This document shows, in pieces, positions 2 to 7,867 of a DNA stretch of 10,000 nt; position 1 is the stretch's first letter; every line of letters starts with the position of its first letter. This DNA comes from Candidatus Hydrogenedens sp. Lineage in GTDB: Bacteria > Hydrogenedentota > Hydrogenedentia > Hydrogenedentales > Hydrogenedentaceae. The position numbers were made by a program, and so were the translations under genes. The notes beneath the pieces are model-generated. The model did no database searches. It saw nothing but the letters and a program-made list of their open reading frames with translations, and was not told where the DNA came from. The stretch lies in the NCBI GenBank assembly GCA_020216745.1, contig JAIWNQ010000267.1, forward strand, positions 1 to 10,000, in the 5' to 3' direction.

Positions 2-1306
2 GCAATTACATGTAAATTTGGTGGAACCTCACTCGCTGATGCCAATTGTATTAAGAAAGTAGCAGAAATTATTTATTCATCACATGATAGAAAATATATC
101 GTCCCTTCTGCCCCAGGAAAAAGAACTGCAAACGATAAGAAAATTACAGACCTTCTATACTTATGGTATAACATCGCCCGAGAAGGATTAGACCCATCAG
201 AACCCGAAAAAATTATCAGAGAACGTTTTTCAACTATAGTCTCGGAATTAGGTCTTAAATTAAATATAAACTCAGAGATAGATAATATTGCAAAAAATGC
301 AGACAAATATGACACCCCTGATTATATGGCTTCACGTGGTGAATATCTCAACGGTAAGATTATTGCAGAATATCTAAATGCAACATTTGTTGACCCAGCC
401 AGTTATATATTCTTTGACGAAACAGGTTCTTTAGATACAAAAACATACAATATCTTAGGAGAGAGATTACAAGGTTCAGGATTATTTGTTGTTCCAGGAT
501 TTTATGGGTCAATGCCCGACGGAACCATTAAAACATTTCCTCGAGGAGGAAGTGATATTACAGGTGCCATTGTTGCACGTGCTACTAAATCAATTCTATA
601 CGAGAACTGGACCGATGTCGATGGCTTTTGTATGGCTGACCCGAGAATTGTTCCCAATGCAAAAAGAATCGAAGAAATCACATATCAGGAGTTAAGGGAA
701 TTATCGTATATGGGTGCAACTGTTTTGCACGACGAATCAATTTACCCTGTACTGGAACCAGGAATTCCAATTCATATTAAAAACACAAAAAATCCCGATA
801 ACCCAGGAACATTAATAGTCCGAAGTAGAGTTCCGAAAGGACCTGTTTGTGGGGTTGCTGGCTTGGCGGGGTTCAGTATGATTAATATCGAAAAAACATT
901 CATGAATAAAGAAAGGGGATTTGGATTAAAAGTACTATCAGTACTCGATGAATATGATATTCGTTGGGAACATATGCCCACAGGTATAGACACAATGTCT
1001 ATCATCATACGAAACAGTGAATTAGGGAATAAAGGACCATTAATTGTTGAGGCAATAAAAAAACGGTGTGAAACAGATGATGTCACCTTAACCAAAGGAC
1101 TTGCTATGATTGCCACAGTGGGCATGGGTATGAATCATCATATTGGGGTAGCCGCAAGGTTATGCACTGCATTAGCAAACGCCAAAGTAAATATCAGGGT
1201 TATTGACCAAGGTTCATCAGAAATGAATATCCTTGTCGGTGTTAACGAAAATGACCTGAACACTGCTATCGAAGCAATTTATAAAGCATTCGAAAATTGG
1301 GATTAA
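2..1306 (+). CDS. Aspartate kinase, yclM/lysC type (5' partial)
   Basis: Phosphorylates L-aspartate with ATP, the first step towards lysine, threonine and methionine. The reading frame is open from base 2, so the true start lies left of the window. The codon ending at base 1 ends in T and cannot be ATG, GTG or TTG, so at least two codons are missing. The first visible residues carry the kinase signature KFGGTS (visible residues 5-10), so the loss is small. Next come VPSAPGKR, typical of Bacillus YclM-like enzymes, then SRGEYLNG (about 111-118), RGGSD (about 181-185) and TDVDG (about 204-208). Two C-terminal ACT domains (about 296-362 and 366-434) bind the amino-acid inhibitor. The 434 visible residues fit a monofunctional aspartokinase, with no homoserine dehydrogenase fused. 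The first internal ATG, at 326, is not the start because the kinase core lies upstream of it. Which amino acid inhibits it cannot be read from the sequence. Confidence 0.96.
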   Translation, partial: AITCKFGGTSLADANCIKKVAEIIYSSHDRKYIVPSAPGKRTANDKKITDLLYLWYNIAREGLDPSEPEKIIRERFSTIVSELGLKLNINSEIDNIAKNADKYDTPDYMASRGEYLNGKIIAEYLNATFVDPASYIFFDETGSLDTKTYNILGERLQGSGLFVVPGFYGSMPDGTIKTFPRGGSDITGAIVARATKSILYENWTDVDGFCMADPRIVPNAKRIEEITYQELRELSYMGATVLHDESIYPVLEPGIPIHIKNTKNPDNPGTLIVRSRVPKGPVCGVAGLAGFSMINIEKTFMNKERGFGLKVLSVLDEYDIRWEHMPTGIDTMSIIIRNSELGNKGPLIVEAIKKRCETDDVTLTKGLAMIATVGMGMNHHIGVAARLCTALANAKVNIRVIDQGSSEMNILVGVNENDLNTAIEAIYKAFENWD

Positions 1307-1344
1307 GCAAAGGTATTACCCATTTAATTTCAATAAAGATTAAA

Positions 1345-1351
1345 AAGGAAG
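1345..1351 (+). promoter_or_regulatory. Ribosome binding site for pyruvate kinase
   Basis: AAGGAAG lies 8 bases before the ATG at 1360. It fixes the start there rather than at the in-frame ATG at 1297, which lies inside the end of the aspartate kinase gene and would add 21 residues unlike any pyruvate kinase N-terminus. Confidence 0.75.
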
Positions 1352-1359
1352 AATCTTCT

Positions 1360-2814
1360 ATGCGTGGAACAAAAATAATTTGCACCATGGGACCTGCAAT
1401 AGAGAACAAAGAGATGATTCAGTCCTTAATCTCAGCAGGAATGGATATTGCCCGTCTCAACTTCTCCCATGGAACCCATGAAAGTCATAAAAATATGTTC
1501 CATGCCATACGAGAAGTAAGTAATACATTAGATAAAAAAATTGGAATCATTATTGACTTACAAGGTCCTAAAATTAGAACTGGTTTGCTTGAAAATCATA
1601 AATTGATTGAATTAATTAGGGGTAAATATATAACAATAACCACGGAGAACGTTGTAGGGAATTCAAACATAATATCGACTGATTATAAATTTCTTCCCGA
1701 AGAAATCCATATTGGGGATCGGATACTTCTTGCTGATGGGACAATGGAATTAAAAGTCGTTGAAATAACCCCACCAGAAGTTAAATGCGAAATTATCCGT
1801 GGAGGACTTTTAGGTGAACGGAAGGGAATGAACCTACCAGATATACCCATTAAAATTCCGTCTATGACAGAGAAAGATTGGGATGATCTTGATTTCGGGA
1901 TATCTTTGGGTACTGATTATTTTGCACTATCTTTTGTTCGCTCTGCTAATGATATTTTACAAGTTAAAAAAAGACTCCAAGACAAAAGTAGTTCTGCAAA
2001 AATAATAGCCAAAATAGAACGTCCAGAAGCCTTAAAATGCATCGATGAAATCATAGAAGTTACAGACGCCTTACTTATTGCAAGAGGCGACCTTGCAGTT
2101 GAAACAACACTTGAAGAAGTACCTTTAGTTCAAAAAAGAATCATTCGAAAATGTAATCAGGCTGGAATTCCTGTTATAACTGCTACACAAATGTTGGAAT
2201 CTATGACTGAACATCCTATCCCAACACGAGCAGAGATGACAGACGTTGCGAATGCAGTTCTTGATGGAACAGATGCAGTAATGCTATCTGCTGAAACAGC
2301 CACAGGCAAAAATCCAATTACAGTGGTAGAAGTTATGTCGAAAATAATCCAATGCGTCGAAAATGACCAAAAATATTTTGAATGCCCTTTTGATAACTTA
2401 TGCAAATCATTTTCAGAACGAACAAAAATTTCACCAGAAATTCAAAAAATTGAAGATAGCGCCTCTGCTGTTGGTAAAGCAGTAAAACAACTCACCAATA
2501 TATTAAATATCAAAGGAATTGCCTGCTTCACATTTTCAGGTTATTCAGCATTAGCCATATCAAATACAAAACCAAAAGTACCTATATATGCTTTAACACC
2601 AAATGATAATGTAGCAAGACAATGTTCCCTTTATTGGGGGGTTCAAGCAATTCTGATACCACCCGTCCAAACAATTGAGGAGATGTTACATATGGTTGAA
2701 AAGACATTAATTACACAAAAATATGTTGAACGAGGTGATATAATAGTCATTGTGGCTGGGTACCCTTTGTCTGTTGCTTGTCCAACAAATTTTATCAAGG
2801 TTCATGTTGTATAA
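1360..2814 (+). CDS. pyk: Pyruvate kinase
   Basis: Converts phosphoenolpyruvate and ADP to pyruvate and ATP in the last step of glycolysis; cytoplasmic, usually a tetramer. The 484-residue protein opens with the classic RGTKIICTMGPA. The substrate-binding ARLNFSHG (about 30-37) and IDLQGPKIRTG (about 65-75) follow, then the B domain (about 75-165). Next are AKIERPEAL with the catalytic Lys218 and metal ligand Glu220, ARGDLAVE with metal ligand Asp244, and TATQMLESM (about 274-282). The MLSAETA segment and a normal C-terminal domain ending in the usual PTNFIKVH are present. The extra PEP-utiliser-like C-terminal domain of Bacillus pyruvate kinases is absent. The gene starts 53 bases after the aspartate kinase and ends one base before the methyltransferase, so it is probably co-transcribed with both. 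All active-site motifs are intact. Confidence 0.97.
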   Translation: MRGTKIICTMGPAIENKEMIQSLISAGMDIARLNFSHGTHESHKNMFHAIREVSNTLDKKIGIIIDLQGPKIRTGLLENHKLIELIRGKYITITTENVVGNSNIISTDYKFLPEEIHIGDRILLADGTMELKVVEITPPEVKCEIIRGGLLGERKGMNLPDIPIKIPSMTEKDWDDLDFGISLGTDYFALSFVRSANDILQVKKRLQDKSSSAKIIAKIERPEALKCIDEIIEVTDALLIARGDLAVETTLEEVPLVQKRIIRKCNQAGIPVITATQMLESMTEHPIPTRAEMTDVANAVLDGTDAVMLSAETATGKNPITVVEVMSKIIQCVENDQKYFECPFDNLCKSFSERTKISPEIQKIEDSASAVGKAVKQLTNILNIKGIACFTFSGYSALAISNTKPKVPIYALTPNDNVARQCSLYWGVQAILIPPVQTIEEMLHMVEKTLITQKYVERGDIIVIVAGYPLSVACPTNFIKVHVV

Positions 2815-2815
2815 C

Positions 2816-3571
2816 ATGGATAAAAAACAGAACACAGATTGGTATATTCAGGCTTTCGATAAATGGTATCCCATTGTTTATCAACAGCGGAACGAACAAG
2901 AAGCAAAAGAACAAGTCAATTTTGTGCTTTCCGAATTAGATTTATCTCCACATCACAAGGTCTTAGACCTATGTTGTGGTTATGGAAGACATATTCAATA
3001 TATAAAAGAAAAAATACCCACTACCATAGGAATTGACATTTCTACATATCTCCTAAGAAAGGCACAGGAATCATTAAAAAATACAGTGATTATAGTTAGG
3101 GGTGACATTCGTTGTCTTCCCTTCAAACACAACACTTTCGATGCAGTGCTAAGTTTCTTTACAAGCTTCGGCTACTTTGCTAATGAAAAGGATAATATTA
3201 AACAAATAAAAAATGTATATAATGTATTAAAAGGAAATGGACTTTTCTTCCTCGATTATTTAAACCCTGAACAAGCAATAAATATTAAAATGAATAGAAC
3301 AAAAAGAATTATTAATAACTACACTGTTATTGAAACACGTTGGTATGATGACAAAACAAAAATACTAAAGAAAAAAGTAGAAATATTTTCAGATGAAAAT
3401 ACAATAATGACAACTTATGTTGAACATGTTCGTATCTACATGTGTAGTGAATTAGAAACCATGTTAAAACAAAATAATTTTGCCATTATGAAAACATTTG
3501 GTGATTACAAAAAGAATAAATACACAGAACTCAGCCCAAGATTAATAATAGTTAGCAAAAAAAATGAATAA
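2816..3571 (+). CDS. Class I SAM-dependent methyltransferase, candidate bacillithiol N-methyltransferase
   Basis: A 251-residue Rossmann-fold methyltransferase. Motif I is VLDLCCGYGRH (residues 49-59), which binds S-adenosylmethionine. GIDIS holds the ribose-binding Asp74. GDIRCLPF (about 96-103) and the motif IV region FDAVLSFFTSFGYF (about 108-121) follow, then VLKGNGLFFLDYLNP. The C-terminal half is beta-rich and ends in SPRLIIVSKK. I chose the ATG at 2816, one base after the pyruvate kinase stop; an in-frame ATG at 2804 (overlapping that gene) is possible and neither has a well-spaced Shine-Dalgarno. The 3' end overlaps bshC by 8 bases, so the two are probably translationally coupled. Methyltransferases of this fold act on many small molecules, and the sequence alone does not give the substrate. 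The position at the head of a full bacillithiol cluster suggests N-methylation of bacillithiol, as proposed for NmbA of Chlorobaculum tepidum. The fold is certain; the substrate is inference. Confidence 0.9.
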   Translation: MDKKQNTDWYIQAFDKWYPIVYQQRNEQEAKEQVNFVLSELDLSPHHKVLDLCCGYGRHIQYIKEKIPTTIGIDISTYLLRKAQESLKNTVIIVRGDIRCLPFKHNTFDAVLSFFTSFGYFANEKDNIKQIKNVYNVLKGNGLFFLDYLNPEQAINIKMNRTKRIINNYTVIETRWYDDKTKILKKKVEIFSDENTIMTTYVEHVRIYMCSELETMLKQNNFAIMKTFGDYKKNKYTELSPRLIIVSKKNE

Positions 3572-5093
3572 ACTATACTTCGATTATTTAAATGGAAAAA
3601 ATGATTTAAGAGAATTTTATTCTTGGCTCCCTGGTGATTCCATTGAAAACTTCCTTAATCAATACCTTAATCAAAGGGAAAAAGTGAGAGGAAATGAAAA
3701 AGAGGAAAACAAACAACATATCAATATCATTTCTGGACAACAACCTGCACTTTTAGGTGGTCCTTTTTATACCTTTTACAAGTTAGCTACATTAATAAAC
3801 ATATCAAATCACTATGGGAAAATAGTTGACCACCACTTAAAACCTATCTTCTGGGTTCATTCTTGGGATCATGATTGGGAAGAAGCATGTAATATCCATT
3901 TCCTAACGTATGATTATCAAATATATAAAATGAATTACAAAATTGAGGAAGAACAAAAAGGAAAATCACTTTATAAAATAGATATAAACGCAGAAAATAT
4001 AATAAATGAGATAGAAACATTAATCTCAAAAGTAAAAGGTTCAGAATATACAAAAGAGATAAAGGAATTCCTATGCACATCTGTTGTGAAAAATAAAAAC
4101 ATTGCAGACTGGTCAACCGATATTTTGAAAGAATTTTTTAATGATGAAGAAATAATATGGTTTGAGCCACATAAAATAACAGAACATACAAAATTACAAA
4201 ATGTAATTAACACTGCAATCGAAAATCATGAGGAATTACACGACTGCTTCCAAAGAACAAATGAAAAATTAAAACAATTAGGCTATAAACTTCAAGTTCA
4301 TAAGCTCCCTATAGATGTCTTTTTTTTCCTTGAAGAAAATGGATATAGAAGAAAATTAATATATGATAAAAAAGAATTTTTATCCGTTGCTTCAGGACAT
4401 AGATATACAATAAAAGAATTAAAGGAAATATTAAAATACGAACCTGAACGATTCTCTCCAAACCTTATATTACGGTGTCTCTTTCAACAATTATTATTCC
4501 CCTGTGTAATGTATATAGGCGGTCCCGCTGAAATAGCATATTGGGCACAACTAAAAGATTTGTTTACTTATTTTAACCTTTCGCTACCAATAATATATCC
4601 AAGGAAAAGAGCAATTATAGTACCACCAAAAATAAAAAAATGGATGGACGAGTTTGGAATTTATTCTCAACTTAAAGAGAACAAAAGTCTCAAAATTAAA
4701 AAAGATAGTTATATTAATTTAAATGTAGAAACGGAAATAGAAATCGTAAAAAATGAGTTGATACAATCAATTCATTTATATGCAAACAAAATGAAAAAAA
4801 CTTTTCATACAGATATCGAGATATTCCAAAATCAAGAAGTACAATTCCTTAAAAAGATTGAATATGAGATAGAACGATACAAAAACGAACTTATAAAAAT
4901 GTATATCAATAAAAACAAACAGATGCAAAACCGCATTAACGCTATTGAAAATACTATTTTACCCTTAGAAAAAGAGCAAGAACGAGTATTCTCACCTATA
5001 TCTTTCATTTCTGAATATGGAAAACAATTCGTAATAAATATATTAAAAAATATAAATATTGGCTCATTTGACATAGAGGTAATTGAATTATGA
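3564..5093 (+). CDS. bshC: Bacillithiol biosynthesis cysteine-adding enzyme BshC
   Basis: Adds L-cysteine to GlcN-malate, the last step in making bacillithiol. The 509-residue protein has the family signatures SGQQPALLGGPFYTFYKLA (about 57-75), PIFWVHSWDHDWEEA (94-108, the DHD region of the nucleotide-binding-like core) and GGPAEIAYWAQL (about 317-328). A charged, lysine- and glutamate-rich stretch near residues 400-480 matches the C-terminal coiled coil that forms the dimer. Family members are usually about 540 residues. The shortfall lies mostly at the N-terminus, where SGQQ comes roughly 30 residues earlier than usual. The ATG at 3564 overlaps the methyltransferase end by 8 bases, lies in a run of eight A and has no Shine-Dalgarno, so translation likely depends on ribosomes finishing the upstream gene. 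The stop overlaps the bshB1 start. The gene is visibly more AT-rich than the two kinases upstream. Confidence 0.95.
   Translation: MNKLYFDYLNGKNDLREFYSWLPGDSIENFLNQYLNQREKVRGNEKEENKQHINIISGQQPALLGGPFYTFYKLATLINISNHYGKIVDHHLKPIFWVHSWDHDWEEACNIHFLTYDYQIYKMNYKIEEEQKGKSLYKIDINAENIINEIETLISKVKGSEYTKEIKEFLCTSVVKNKNIADWSTDILKEFFNDEEIIWFEPHKITEHTKLQNVINTAIENHEELHDCFQRTNEKLKQLGYKLQVHKLPIDVFFFLEENGYRRKLIYDKKEFLSVASGHRYTIKELKEILKYEPERFSPNLILRCLFQQLLFPCVMYIGGPAEIAYWAQLKDLFTYFNLSLPIIYPRKRAIIVPPKIKKWMDEFGIYSQLKENKSLKIKKDSYINLNVETEIEIVKNELIQSIHLYANKMKKTFHTDIEIFQNQEVQFLKKIEYEIERYKNELIKMYINKNKQMQNRINAIENTILPLEKEQERVFSPISFISEYGKQFVINILKNINIGSFDIEVIEL
5075..5080 (+). promoter_or_regulatory. Ribosome binding site for bshB1
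   Basis: AGAGGT inside the end of bshC, 9 bases before the ATG at 5090. It supports that start and independent loading of ribosomes on bshB1. Confidence 0.7.
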
Positions 5094-5797
5094 ATAAAAT
5101 AGATGTTTTAGCTTTTGGTGCACATCCAGATGACGTTGAATTGGGGATAGGTGGGACATTGGCAAAACTTATAAAACAAGGGCTTAATGTTGGTATCGTT
5201 GACCTTACAAGAGGGGAGATGGGCTCCCGTGGAACCGTTGAAGAACGATTAGAAGAGGCAAAAAATTCTGCGTCTATTTTAGGTGTATCTATACGTGAGA
5301 CCTTAGCATTACCAGATACAGATATTCGGATAAACAAAGAGCAAAAACTTCCACTCATCAAAATAATCAGAAAGTACAAGCCAAAGATGATACTTGCCAC
5401 AATGCCCGATGACAGACATCCAGACCATCATAATGCTCACTTTCTTATTCGTGAAGCTAATTATTTTGCTGGGGTACATAGTATCAATACGGCTCAACAA
5501 CCATACCGATGTCCTTTACTATTATATTACTATCCTTACTATGAAATAAATACCCCTGATTTTATAATTGACATATCAGATTACTATGAAACAAAAATTG
5601 AGGCTTTAAATGCATACCGTTCTCAGTTCTTTAATCCCAACTATGTAGGTCCTGAAACCTTTATTTCCACAGAACGTTTTTTGAAAAGTATTCAAGACCG
5701 CTGTCTCTATTGGGGAAGTAAAATTAATGTGATGTACGGAGAAACCCTCTATAAGAAAGAACCTATACCAATAAATTTAGAATATTTGCTAAAATAA
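5090..5797 (+). CDS. bshB1: Bacillithiol biosynthesis deacetylase BshB1
   Basis: Zinc-dependent LmbE/PIG-L family deacetylase that turns GlcNAc-malate into GlcN-malate. At 235 residues it has the normal length. AHPDD near the N-terminus gives zinc ligands His12 and Asp15 and catalytic base Asp14. PDDRHPDHHNAH gives His110 and the third zinc ligand His113. These match the positions known for the Bacillus cereus homologue BcZBP. LTRGEMGSRGT (about 39-49) and EALNAYRSQF near the C-terminus are also typical of the BshB1 branch. The start shares ATGA with the bshC stop (4-base overlap) and has its own ribosome site. Some BshB enzymes also cleave bacillithiol S-conjugates during detoxification; no separate amidase gene lies in this window, so a dual role is possible but unproven. 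Confidence 0.96.
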   Translation: MNKIDVLAFGAHPDDVELGIGGTLAKLIKQGLNVGIVDLTRGEMGSRGTVEERLEEAKNSASILGVSIRETLALPDTDIRINKEQKLPLIKIIRKYKPKMILATMPDDRHPDHHNAHFLIREANYFAGVHSINTAQQPYRCPLLLYYYPYYEINTPDFIIDISDYYETKIEALNAYRSQFFNPNYVGPETFISTERFLKSIQDRCLYWGSKINVMYGETLYKKEPIPINLEYLLK

Positions 5798-5801
5798 AAC
5801 A

Positions 5802-6950
5802 ATGAGAAAAAAAACACAAAAACTCAAAATAGGAATCAGTTGCTACGCATCCACAGGAGGAAGTGGCATTGTCGCAACCGAATTGGGTTTAGCGCTTGCC
5901 CAAAGAGGTCACGAAGTACACTTTGTTGTTGAACAAATCCCATTCCGATTAAGAGACAATTCTGAAGGTGTATTTTGTCATGTCGTTGAACCTATTAACT
6001 ATCCAGTTCTTAAACAACCCCCATCATTTTTAACAATGGCTTCACGAATTGCAGAAGTTGTTGAAGAAAATTCAATACAATTATGGCATGCCCATTATGC
6101 AATTCCCCATGCAAGTATTGCACTCCTCGCTAAAGAAATGCTACCACCGCCATTAAGATTTTGTCTCATAACAACCCTACATGGAACAGATATTACCATT
6201 GTAGGTGCAGACCCATCTTTATACAGGGTAACAAAACATGCAATGGAGAATAGTTGTGCAATTACTGCGGTCTCCGATTGGCTCAAAAAAGAGACTGAAC
6301 GCGAATTTAACCTTTCCAAACCCATCCACAGAATTTATAATTTCATCAAACCTTCACGTTTTCAAAAAATAAAAAAAATAAACACTCCATGGTTTGATAA
6401 AAACAAAAAAACAATTATGCACATTTCTAATTTTCGAGCCGTAAAAAGAGTAACTGATGTAATCCGTGTTTTTGCTAAAGTCGTTGAACGAATAGATGCA
6501 CAATTAGTCATGGTTGGTGAAGGTCCCGAACGAATTTCTTCTGTTGGCGTTGCCCGTCAATTAGGTATATTAAATAAAATAAAATATATTGGGAATTATC
6601 CACGCATAGAAGAACTACTTACCTCTGCTGATTTAGTAATTCAGCCGAGCGAACATGAAAGTTTTGGCATGGTCGCACTGGAAGCAATGTCAGCAGGTGT
6701 CCCAGTAATTGCAACTCGAAGCGGAGGAATACAAGAATTGATAGTCGATGGTGTTACAGGGTTTTTATGTGAAGTAGGGGATATTGAAACCATGGCAGAT
6801 TGGGCTATACAAATTTTATTTGATGATAAATTAAAAAAAGAGATGGGCAAACATGCAAAACAAAGAGTACGAGAACAATTTAGCGATGATAAAATAATAC
6901 CTCAATATGAAGAACTATATATAAACACATTAAACAAATATAAATCATAA
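5802..6950 (+). CDS. bshA: N-acetyl-alpha-D-glucosaminyl L-malate synthase BshA
   Basis: GT4-family retaining glycosyltransferase that joins GlcNAc from UDP-GlcNAc to L-malate, the first step of bacillithiol synthesis. The 382-residue protein has two Rossmann domains. The N-terminal acceptor domain carries GGSGIVATELG (19-29), HAHYAIPHA (96-104) and TTLHGTDITIVG (124-135), all hallmarks of BshA rather than of other GT4 enzymes. The C-terminal donor domain has ISNFRAVKR (about 208-216), VGEGPER and the EX7E motif with Glu286 and Glu294 in the segment ESFGMVALEAMSAGVPV. The gene begins 4 bases after the bshB1 stop without a Shine-Dalgarno, so translational coupling is likely. The gene order bshC-bshB1-bshA is the reverse of the order of the reactions. 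Confidence 0.96.
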   Translation: MRKKTQKLKIGISCYASTGGSGIVATELGLALAQRGHEVHFVVEQIPFRLRDNSEGVFCHVVEPINYPVLKQPPSFLTMASRIAEVVEENSIQLWHAHYAIPHASIALLAKEMLPPPLRFCLITTLHGTDITIVGADPSLYRVTKHAMENSCAITAVSDWLKKETEREFNLSKPIHRIYNFIKPSRFQKIKKINTPWFDKNKKTIMHISNFRAVKRVTDVIRVFAKVVERIDAQLVMVGEGPERISSVGVARQLGILNKIKYIGNYPRIEELLTSADLVIQPSEHESFGMVALEAMSAGVPVIATRSGGIQELIVDGVTGFLCEVGDIETMADWAIQILFDDKLKKEMGKHAKQRVREQFSDDKIIPQYEELYINTLNKYKS

Positions 6951-6961
6951 GAAGAATAACT

Positions 6962-7867
6962 ATGAACAAAAAAGACATAATAAGAATTGGCATTTTTTAC
7001 GATGGTAATTTCTTTTTCCACGTGAGTTCATATTACCGTTACGTTCACCCTCCTAAAAAACGAATTTCTATAAGTGGATTGCATAATTTCATAAAAAATA
7101 AAATTGCAGAGTTTGAAAAGGTTGAATCTAACCTTGTTCATATAGTTACATCCCATTTCTTCCGTGGCAGATTATCTGCAAAAGATGCAGAGCTTGAAGA
7201 TAGACTTTATTCCGAGCGTGTTTTTGAAGATATATTAATGAACGAAGGTGTAATAACCCATTACCTGCCAATAAAAGTAAAGAGCGACAAAAGACATGAG
7301 AGAGGCATAGATGTATGGCTTGCATTAGAAGCATACGATACTGTTATTCAGAAAAAACTCGATGTACTCGTGCTTATCACTGGTGATGCCGATTTTATTC
7401 CATTAGTAAAAAAAGCTCAATCAGCCAATGCAAAGGTAATGCTCTTAGGATGGGACTTTAAATATACAGATGAGTCAGGAGTAGATTGTTCCACAATTAC
7501 CTCTGCAGAGTTATTAGAGTCCTCTACATATCCATTAAATATGCACAACTTGATTGAAAAAGGACTACAAGAGGAAGACAATGACATATTAAATCTGTTC
7601 TATGATATTAAGGAAGAACAACAAGAATCACAAACCAAAATAAAAGAATATTTTCAAGGTAAAATACACTCCTTAAAAGAAGGTTATGGTTTTATTTCAT
7701 GCCAGAAATTTCCAAAAAATGTTTTCTTCCATTATTCCGCCTTAAAAAATCAAAACTTTCAAGATTTAGTAGTTGGTCAAAAAGTTGAATTTTTAGTTCA
7801 TGAAGCTGACAAAGGTATTGTTGCTCAACCCGTAATTGTTATAAATAATCCAACAAATAATGATTAA
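6962..7867 (+). CDS. NYN (LabA-like PIN) domain protein with C-terminal cold-shock domain
   Basis: A 301-residue, two-domain protein that probably binds and cuts RNA. Residues about 6-190 form a NYN domain, the LabA-like branch of the PIN nuclease fold. FYDGNF carries Asp14 and Asn16, RGIDVWLALEA carries Asp117, and ITGDADFIPLV carries Asp142 and Asp144, together the expected acidic metal-binding set. A charged, glutamine- and glutamate-rich linker (about 200-230) leads to a cold-shock domain (about 231-295) with GYGFISC as the RNP1-like motif and VFFHYSAL as RNP2. The gene starts 11 bases after bshA behind a weak AGAAG site, so it looks like the last gene of the operon. I know no link between this domain pair and bacillithiol. 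The substrate RNA is unknown and nuclease activity is inferred from the acidic residues only. Confidence 0.88.
   Translation: MNKKDIIRIGIFYDGNFFFHVSSYYRYVHPPKKRISISGLHNFIKNKIAEFEKVESNLVHIVTSHFFRGRLSAKDAELEDRLYSERVFEDILMNEGVITHYLPIKVKSDKRHERGIDVWLALEAYDTVIQKKLDVLVLITGDADFIPLVKKAQSANAKVMLLGWDFKYTDESGVDCSTITSAELLESSTYPLNMHNLIEKGLQEEDNDILNLFYDIKEEQQESQTKIKEYFQGKIHSLKEGYGFISCQKFPKNVFFHYSALKNQNFQDLVVGQKVEFLVHEADKGIVAQPVIVINNPTNND

Follow-up and report, generated by a model that had tools for sequence, protein, structure and literature searches.

A predicted N-methyl-bacillithiol synthase gene overlaps bshC in a Hydrogenedentota bacterium

NmbA is the methyltransferase that modifies bacillithiol (BSH). 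The enzymes of Chlorobaculum tepidum (CtNmbA, CT1040) and Paenibacillus polymyxa N-methylate BSH in vitro, and in the assays described in the main text of that report no product was seen with bacillithiol disulfide (BSSB), glycine or glutathione (GSH) as the substrate (PMC12719100). In the cell, deletion of CT1040 blocks BSH methylation; the 2018 work reporting this proposed repeated late gain of nmbA (PMC6282198). A 2025 survey of the pathway covered the validly published phyla (PMC12719100). Published work already describes the enzyme, its product and how widely the enzyme is distributed. Here we analyze a window of 10,000 nucleotides, the whole stretch of DNA under study, which is contig C14 of a draft genome (3.13 Mb, 86% complete) of an uncultured Hydrogenedentota bacterium; a protein search gave Candidatus Hydrogenedens or Hydrogenedentes as its named relatives. 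The window carries a gene for an S-adenosylmethionine (SAM)-dependent methyltransferase followed by bshC, bshB1 and bshA. The methyltransferase is a further member of the known NmbA family. From its sequence and context, the gene is very probably an nmbA orthologue whose product would N-methylate bacillithiol, with N-methyl-bacillithiol as the predicted main thiol of the host.

The initial annotation regarded the gene as a candidate N-methyl-bacillithiol synthase, and the matches to CtNmbA, the tree and the gene linkage given below all support that proposal, with BSH as the predicted substrate. In a search of all PDB sequences, the best chain is CtNmbA (PDB 9RI2; E 1.7e-29, 106 bits, residues 5–247 of 251), and the second, 1WZN, reaches 50 bits. 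In the reverse search of the host genome with CtNmbA residues 12–259, the window gene comes first (103 bits at 33% identity), and the runner-up has 26.8 bits. The two proteins are each other's best match, the window-to-CtNmbA direction having been searched against PDB chains only. Residues 5–247 of the window protein are homologous to CtNmbA residues 12–259, including the motif I region and the SFGYF motif, although identity is 31–33%. PMC12719100 set its homology level for NmbA at E <1e-20, coverage >80% and identity >25%; the window protein lies within it (E 1.7e-29, residues 5–247, 33%), with programs and databases that differ from those of the paper.

General family models are less specific. 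The protein matches PF13649, PF08241 and other class I models of Pfam (best E 3.7e-17), all of them generic, and with the 25 of 28 NCBIfam families listed none reaches its own cut-off. Unlike glycine/sarcosine N-methyltransferases (GSMT, NF051855), it stays far below the 350-bit family cut-off. The predicted structure is a confident model, with a predicted local distance difference test (pLDDT) score of 94.1. In the fold search 9RI2 is third by Z, tied with 3D2L, YunM, CypM, CcbJ and others, and the fold is therefore not used as evidence for function. Viral relatives were found at 19 loci, mostly as partial matches, with 25% identity at best.

The association with bshC was examined in 68 Hydrogenedentota genomes. 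A strong methyltransferase hit (at least 170 bits, best row per genome) is present in 57, bshC (all PF10079 rows) in 58, both in 56 and neither in 9 (Fisher p 1e-8, kinship uncorrected); G025, G027, G031, G038 and G048, with weaker hits, were counted as lacking the methyltransferase. Linked genes were defined as those on the same contig and the same strand with <500 bases between both profile matches. In 52 of the 56 genomes that have both, bshC follows immediately after the methyltransferase gene in the same orientation, confirming that the adjacency exceeds chance. The four others are G002, G016, G017 and G060. In G002 the methyltransferase gene is split across two contigs, with bshC just past the second piece; in G017 and G060 no bshC lies within 6.6 and 5.0 kb downstream, respectively. 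In G025 and G048, which have bshC only, nmbA could not show because bshC lies within about 200 bases of a contig start. G066 has NmbA only, as a partial match (model 4–130). G030, a genome of the same genus as the host and 91% complete, lacks both the methyltransferase and bshC.

The survey of other genomes suggested in the initial annotation shows the same arrangement in some members of other phyla. In 121 Gemmatimonadota genomes, for which all 94 methyltransferase rows and the best bshC row from each of 118 genomes were compared, 50 have a hit of at least 197 bits, and all 50 hits lie 9–225 bases (between profile matches) before bshC. A lower-scoring group of 44 hits (140–171 bits, 43 genomes; for example G092:C12:509568-510308) is never linked to bshC, and identity-based surveys may count this second NmbA-like group as NmbA. 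The high-scoring hit is missing from 68 of the 118 bshC genomes.

Among the best 80 loci, linkage to bshC is seen at 23, of which 18 belong to groups other than Hydrogenedentota, and the methyltransferase is first and on the same strand in 23 of 23. L012 was counted as Hydrogenedentota, with which its place in the tree agrees. The 18 loci comprise five from Gemmatimonadota, three from Planctomycetota, two from Acidobacteriota, one each from Calditrichota, Lentisphaerota, Eiseniibacteriota, Krumholzibacteriota and Electryoneota, and three from further bacteria. A further Planctomycetota locus, L048, is unlinked, and two of the 80 sequences (L034 and L069) end <800 bases past the gene. No bshC was seen in the read flanks of the Bacteroidota, Ignavibacteria and Bacillota loci among these 80; at one Flavobacteriales locus (L077) bshB1 is 770 bases off on the opposite strand. 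In 23 of 24 genomes tested, drawn from the 57 unlinked loci, bshC is present elsewhere in the genome. The one genome where it was not found is from Zixibacteria (L043), and its protein groups with the paralogues in the tree; L070, likewise from Zixibacteria and among the paralogues, carries bshC.

The window differs in layout from the described NmbA systems. Its nmbA precedes bshC, whereas the C. tepidum locus tags (CT0548, CT1419, CT1558 and CT1040) are far apart, and the Paenibacillus loci fetched, whose proteins are others than the P. polymyxa NmbA, have no bsh gene in their flanks. Bacillota and Bacteroidota loci examined do not have nmbA beside bshC, whereas the window genes are contiguous with the methyltransferase first. 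The three Bsh enzymes themselves are the same as in bshA/bshB1/bshC sets with no adjoining nmbA.

Residues W16, W20, H31, R70 and K198 of CtNmbA, at the putative binding and entry sites, were adjusted before docking in PMC12719100. Their equivalents in the window protein are W9, A13, Q23, R58 and K186, so that three of the five (W, R and K) are kept. The A13 and Q23 positions are variable within the family, the Paenibacillus pabuli protein having S and N there. K186 is matched by a lysine in 67 of 70 family rows and in all 120 rows of an alignment (A2) of the window protein with its 119 best relatives, but in none of the 10 paralogue rows, one of which has a gap there. Altogether the window protein keeps the family signature of W9, R25, R58, K186, E203 and R242.

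In a careful tree of 63 rows, a branch with 94/94 support, a value just short of the tree tool's star, separates 56 rows, among them the window protein, CtNmbA and several Paenibacillus proteins, from the rest. The other side holds the NmbA-like domains of three methyltransferase–ATP-grasp proteins, the free-standing Hydrogenedentota paralogues L178 and L179, and two Zixibacteria proteins. The tree is unrooted, represents Paenibacillus by species other than P. polymyxa and does not resolve the deep branching order. A quick tree, from which 19 of the 80 loci L009–L088 were omitted as near neighbours, was rooted on a distant methyltransferase. The careful tree omits 17 more rows (five distant paralogues and 12 near neighbours), and it is preferred because very long branches meet in the quick one.

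Several points weigh against N-methylation of BSH by the window protein. In the careful tree it belongs to a branch of 11 linked Hydrogenedentota rows (support 98/93), apart from that of CtNmbA. The quick tree is less clear: the smallest group that joins the branches of CtNmbA and Paenibacillus includes the ATP-grasp paralogues but not the window protein. At two of the five named site positions the residue is not that of CtNmbA, and linkage to bsh genes fixes the pathway but not the methylated atom. The enzyme might therefore methylate a compound of the pathway elsewhere than at the cysteine amine of finished BSH, for example at the thiol sulfur, on the glucosamine-malate intermediate or at a malate carboxyl. 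This is unlikely, as the family signature is kept and both assayed members, from Chlorobiota and Bacillota, N-methylate BSH according to PMC12719100. As the protein sits on a separate branch of Hydrogenedentota and not next to CtNmbA, BSH is a predicted substrate.

Class I methyltransferases form a large superfamily, and with generic Pfam models and unspecific fold matches the protein could act on an unrelated substrate and stand beside bshC by chance. We reject this very improbable reading: the CtNmbA match is far above those of other methyltransferases and is best both ways, the gene adjoins bshC in 52/56 Hydrogenedentota and 50/50 Gemmatimonadota genomes, and both genes are missing together in nine of the 68 genomes, including G030 of the same genus. 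Least probable of all is a diverged, inactive or regulatory NmbA, for which residue 24 (nt 2885–2887) speaks, being Q where H stands in 53 of 70 family rows, 112 of 120 A2 rows and the same-genus relatives L109 and L110, and against which stand an intact SAM site, most family residues, the full length, the open frame and the confident model. The alternative of a separately evolved thiol-modifying enzyme, raised at the outset, is not needed given the alignment, tree and linkage results.

We thus favor an NmbA that acts on BSH. BshA, BshB1 and BshC would assemble bacillithiol (cysteine-glucosamine-malate, Cys-GlcN-malate), and the methyltransferase would then methylate the cysteine amine of BSH with SAM as the donor. 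The product, N-methyl-bacillithiol, is the predicted main low-molecular-weight thiol of the host. The coordinates of the genes are listed in Table 1.

Table 1. Genes of the bacillithiol locus and its upstream neighbours in the window.
Feature	Position	Strand	Remark
nmbA orthologue, class I SAM-dependent methyltransferase, 251 residues	2816..3571	+	predicted N-methylation of bacillithiol cysteine amine
bshC, cysteine-adding enzyme of bacillithiol synthesis, 509 residues	3564..5093	+	TIGR03998
bshB1, bacillithiol-pathway deacetylase	5090..5797	+	TIGR04001
bshA, N-acetylglucosamine (GlcNAc)-malate synthase	5802..6950	+	TIGR03999
pyk, pyruvate kinase	1297..2814 (listed open reading frame; likely ATG near 1360)	+	named from its sequence
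lysC	2-1306		upstream of nmbA and pyk

The three Bsh proteins pass the NCBI curated cut-offs: BshC has 303.2 bits (cut-off 265.8), BshB1 274 bits (182.5) and BshA 474.8 bits (273.7), so a complete bshA, bshB and bshC set is present in the genome of nmbA itself. The nmbA start was taken as the ATG at 2816; the list of open reading frames opens the same frame at a TTG at 2750. The coordinates, the Pfam matches and motif I (VLDLCCGYGRH, residues 49–59) confirm a SAM methyltransferase directly before bshC with an overlap of 8 bases (3564–3571), the nmbA stop TAA being at 3569–3571 and the bshC ATG at 3564. bshC and bshB1 overlap by 4 bases, and a gap of 4 bases separates bshB1 from bshA. nmbA and bshC are probably translationally coupled through their overlap, and the four genes nmbA-bshC-bshB1-bshA are probably co-transcribed.

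The run is tight and contiguous, but nmbA is not plainly its head as the initial annotation had it. The gene ending at 2814, which we take from its sequence to be a pyruvate kinase gene, leaves a single base before the nmbA start, and for this reason the transcript may start further upstream. pyk is perhaps on the same transcript as nmbA, with no role in thiols implied. lysC or pyk was detected upstream of nmbA on the same strand in 27 of 29 loci (L109–L137), a neighbourhood with no evident tie to thiols. A truncated lysC was suspected from the open reading frames and rejected, as the frame just runs off the contig start. Directly past bshA, at 6962–7867, lies a gene whose product has an NYN domain at the N-terminus and a cold-shock domain at the C-terminus. 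The gene was not seen at the loci of the relatives compared, where most Hydrogenedentota sequences are too short to reach its place.

Other genes of thiol metabolism were also searched. PF06491 (Disulph_isomer), the bacilliredoxin family, is absent in all four genomes of the genus (G000 and G028–G030) but occurs in 29 of the 68 genomes of the phylum. The reductase YpdA (TIGR04018) gave only below-cut-off matches in the host genome, which says little because 11 of 14 control genomes also match only below the cut-off.

Two kinds of composite frame were seen in Hydrogenedentota. Proteins of 650–680 residues (L168:5418-7451, L169:4854-6815, L170:3548-5578 and L171:5240-7228; L169 covered by the Pfam scan) carry an NmbA-like domain followed by a D-Ala-D-Ala-ligase-like ATP-grasp domain. 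L168–L170 have E and R in place of R33 and K198, respectively, and because of this their substrate is probably different. In G049 (L173:6962-8932), nmbA and bshC share one frame of 657 residues. A true NmbA–BshC fusion was rejected, because the frame lacks the end of NmbA and some 127 BshC residues; it is a deletion or assembly artefact.

NmbA and the Bsh proteins have correlated tree distances, with r 0.76 for BshC (25 loci), r 0.78 for BshB1 (15 loci) and r 0.71 for BshA (14 loci). The set consisted of 21 of the 23 linked loci and four Hydrogenedentota loci, with several BshC pieces partial. These values are about equal to those among the Bsh proteins themselves (r 0.65–0.88), and a common species history could by itself yield the NmbA–Bsh correlations. 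A tentative and rather doubtful extension is that the unit nmbA-bshC-bshB1-bshA is old and has been retained or transmitted as a block in at least eight phyla. N-methylation would in these lineages be a fixed core step, and nmbA would not have been acquired late and repeatedly. The overlap would then couple both enzymes, maybe with a direct handover of BSH that leaves little of it free.

Neither PMC12719100 nor PMC6282198 uses the terms 'operon', 'gene cluster' or 'Hydrogenedent' in its main text, and 'operon' is absent from the available text of the commentary PMC6336425. In the open-access literature searched, no paper pairs 'Hydrogenedent' with 'bacillithiol' and no title concerns the nmbA-bshC arrangement. 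The nmbA-bshC(-bshB1-bshA) order and the prediction for Hydrogenedentota appear new within that literature only. They would extend predicted N-methyl-bacillithiol synthesis to Hydrogenedentota, and the recurring gene order lends genomic-context support to the role of NmbA across distant phyla. The recurring operon also makes it testable whether N-methylation is an old part of bacillithiol synthesis or has been acquired repeatedly.
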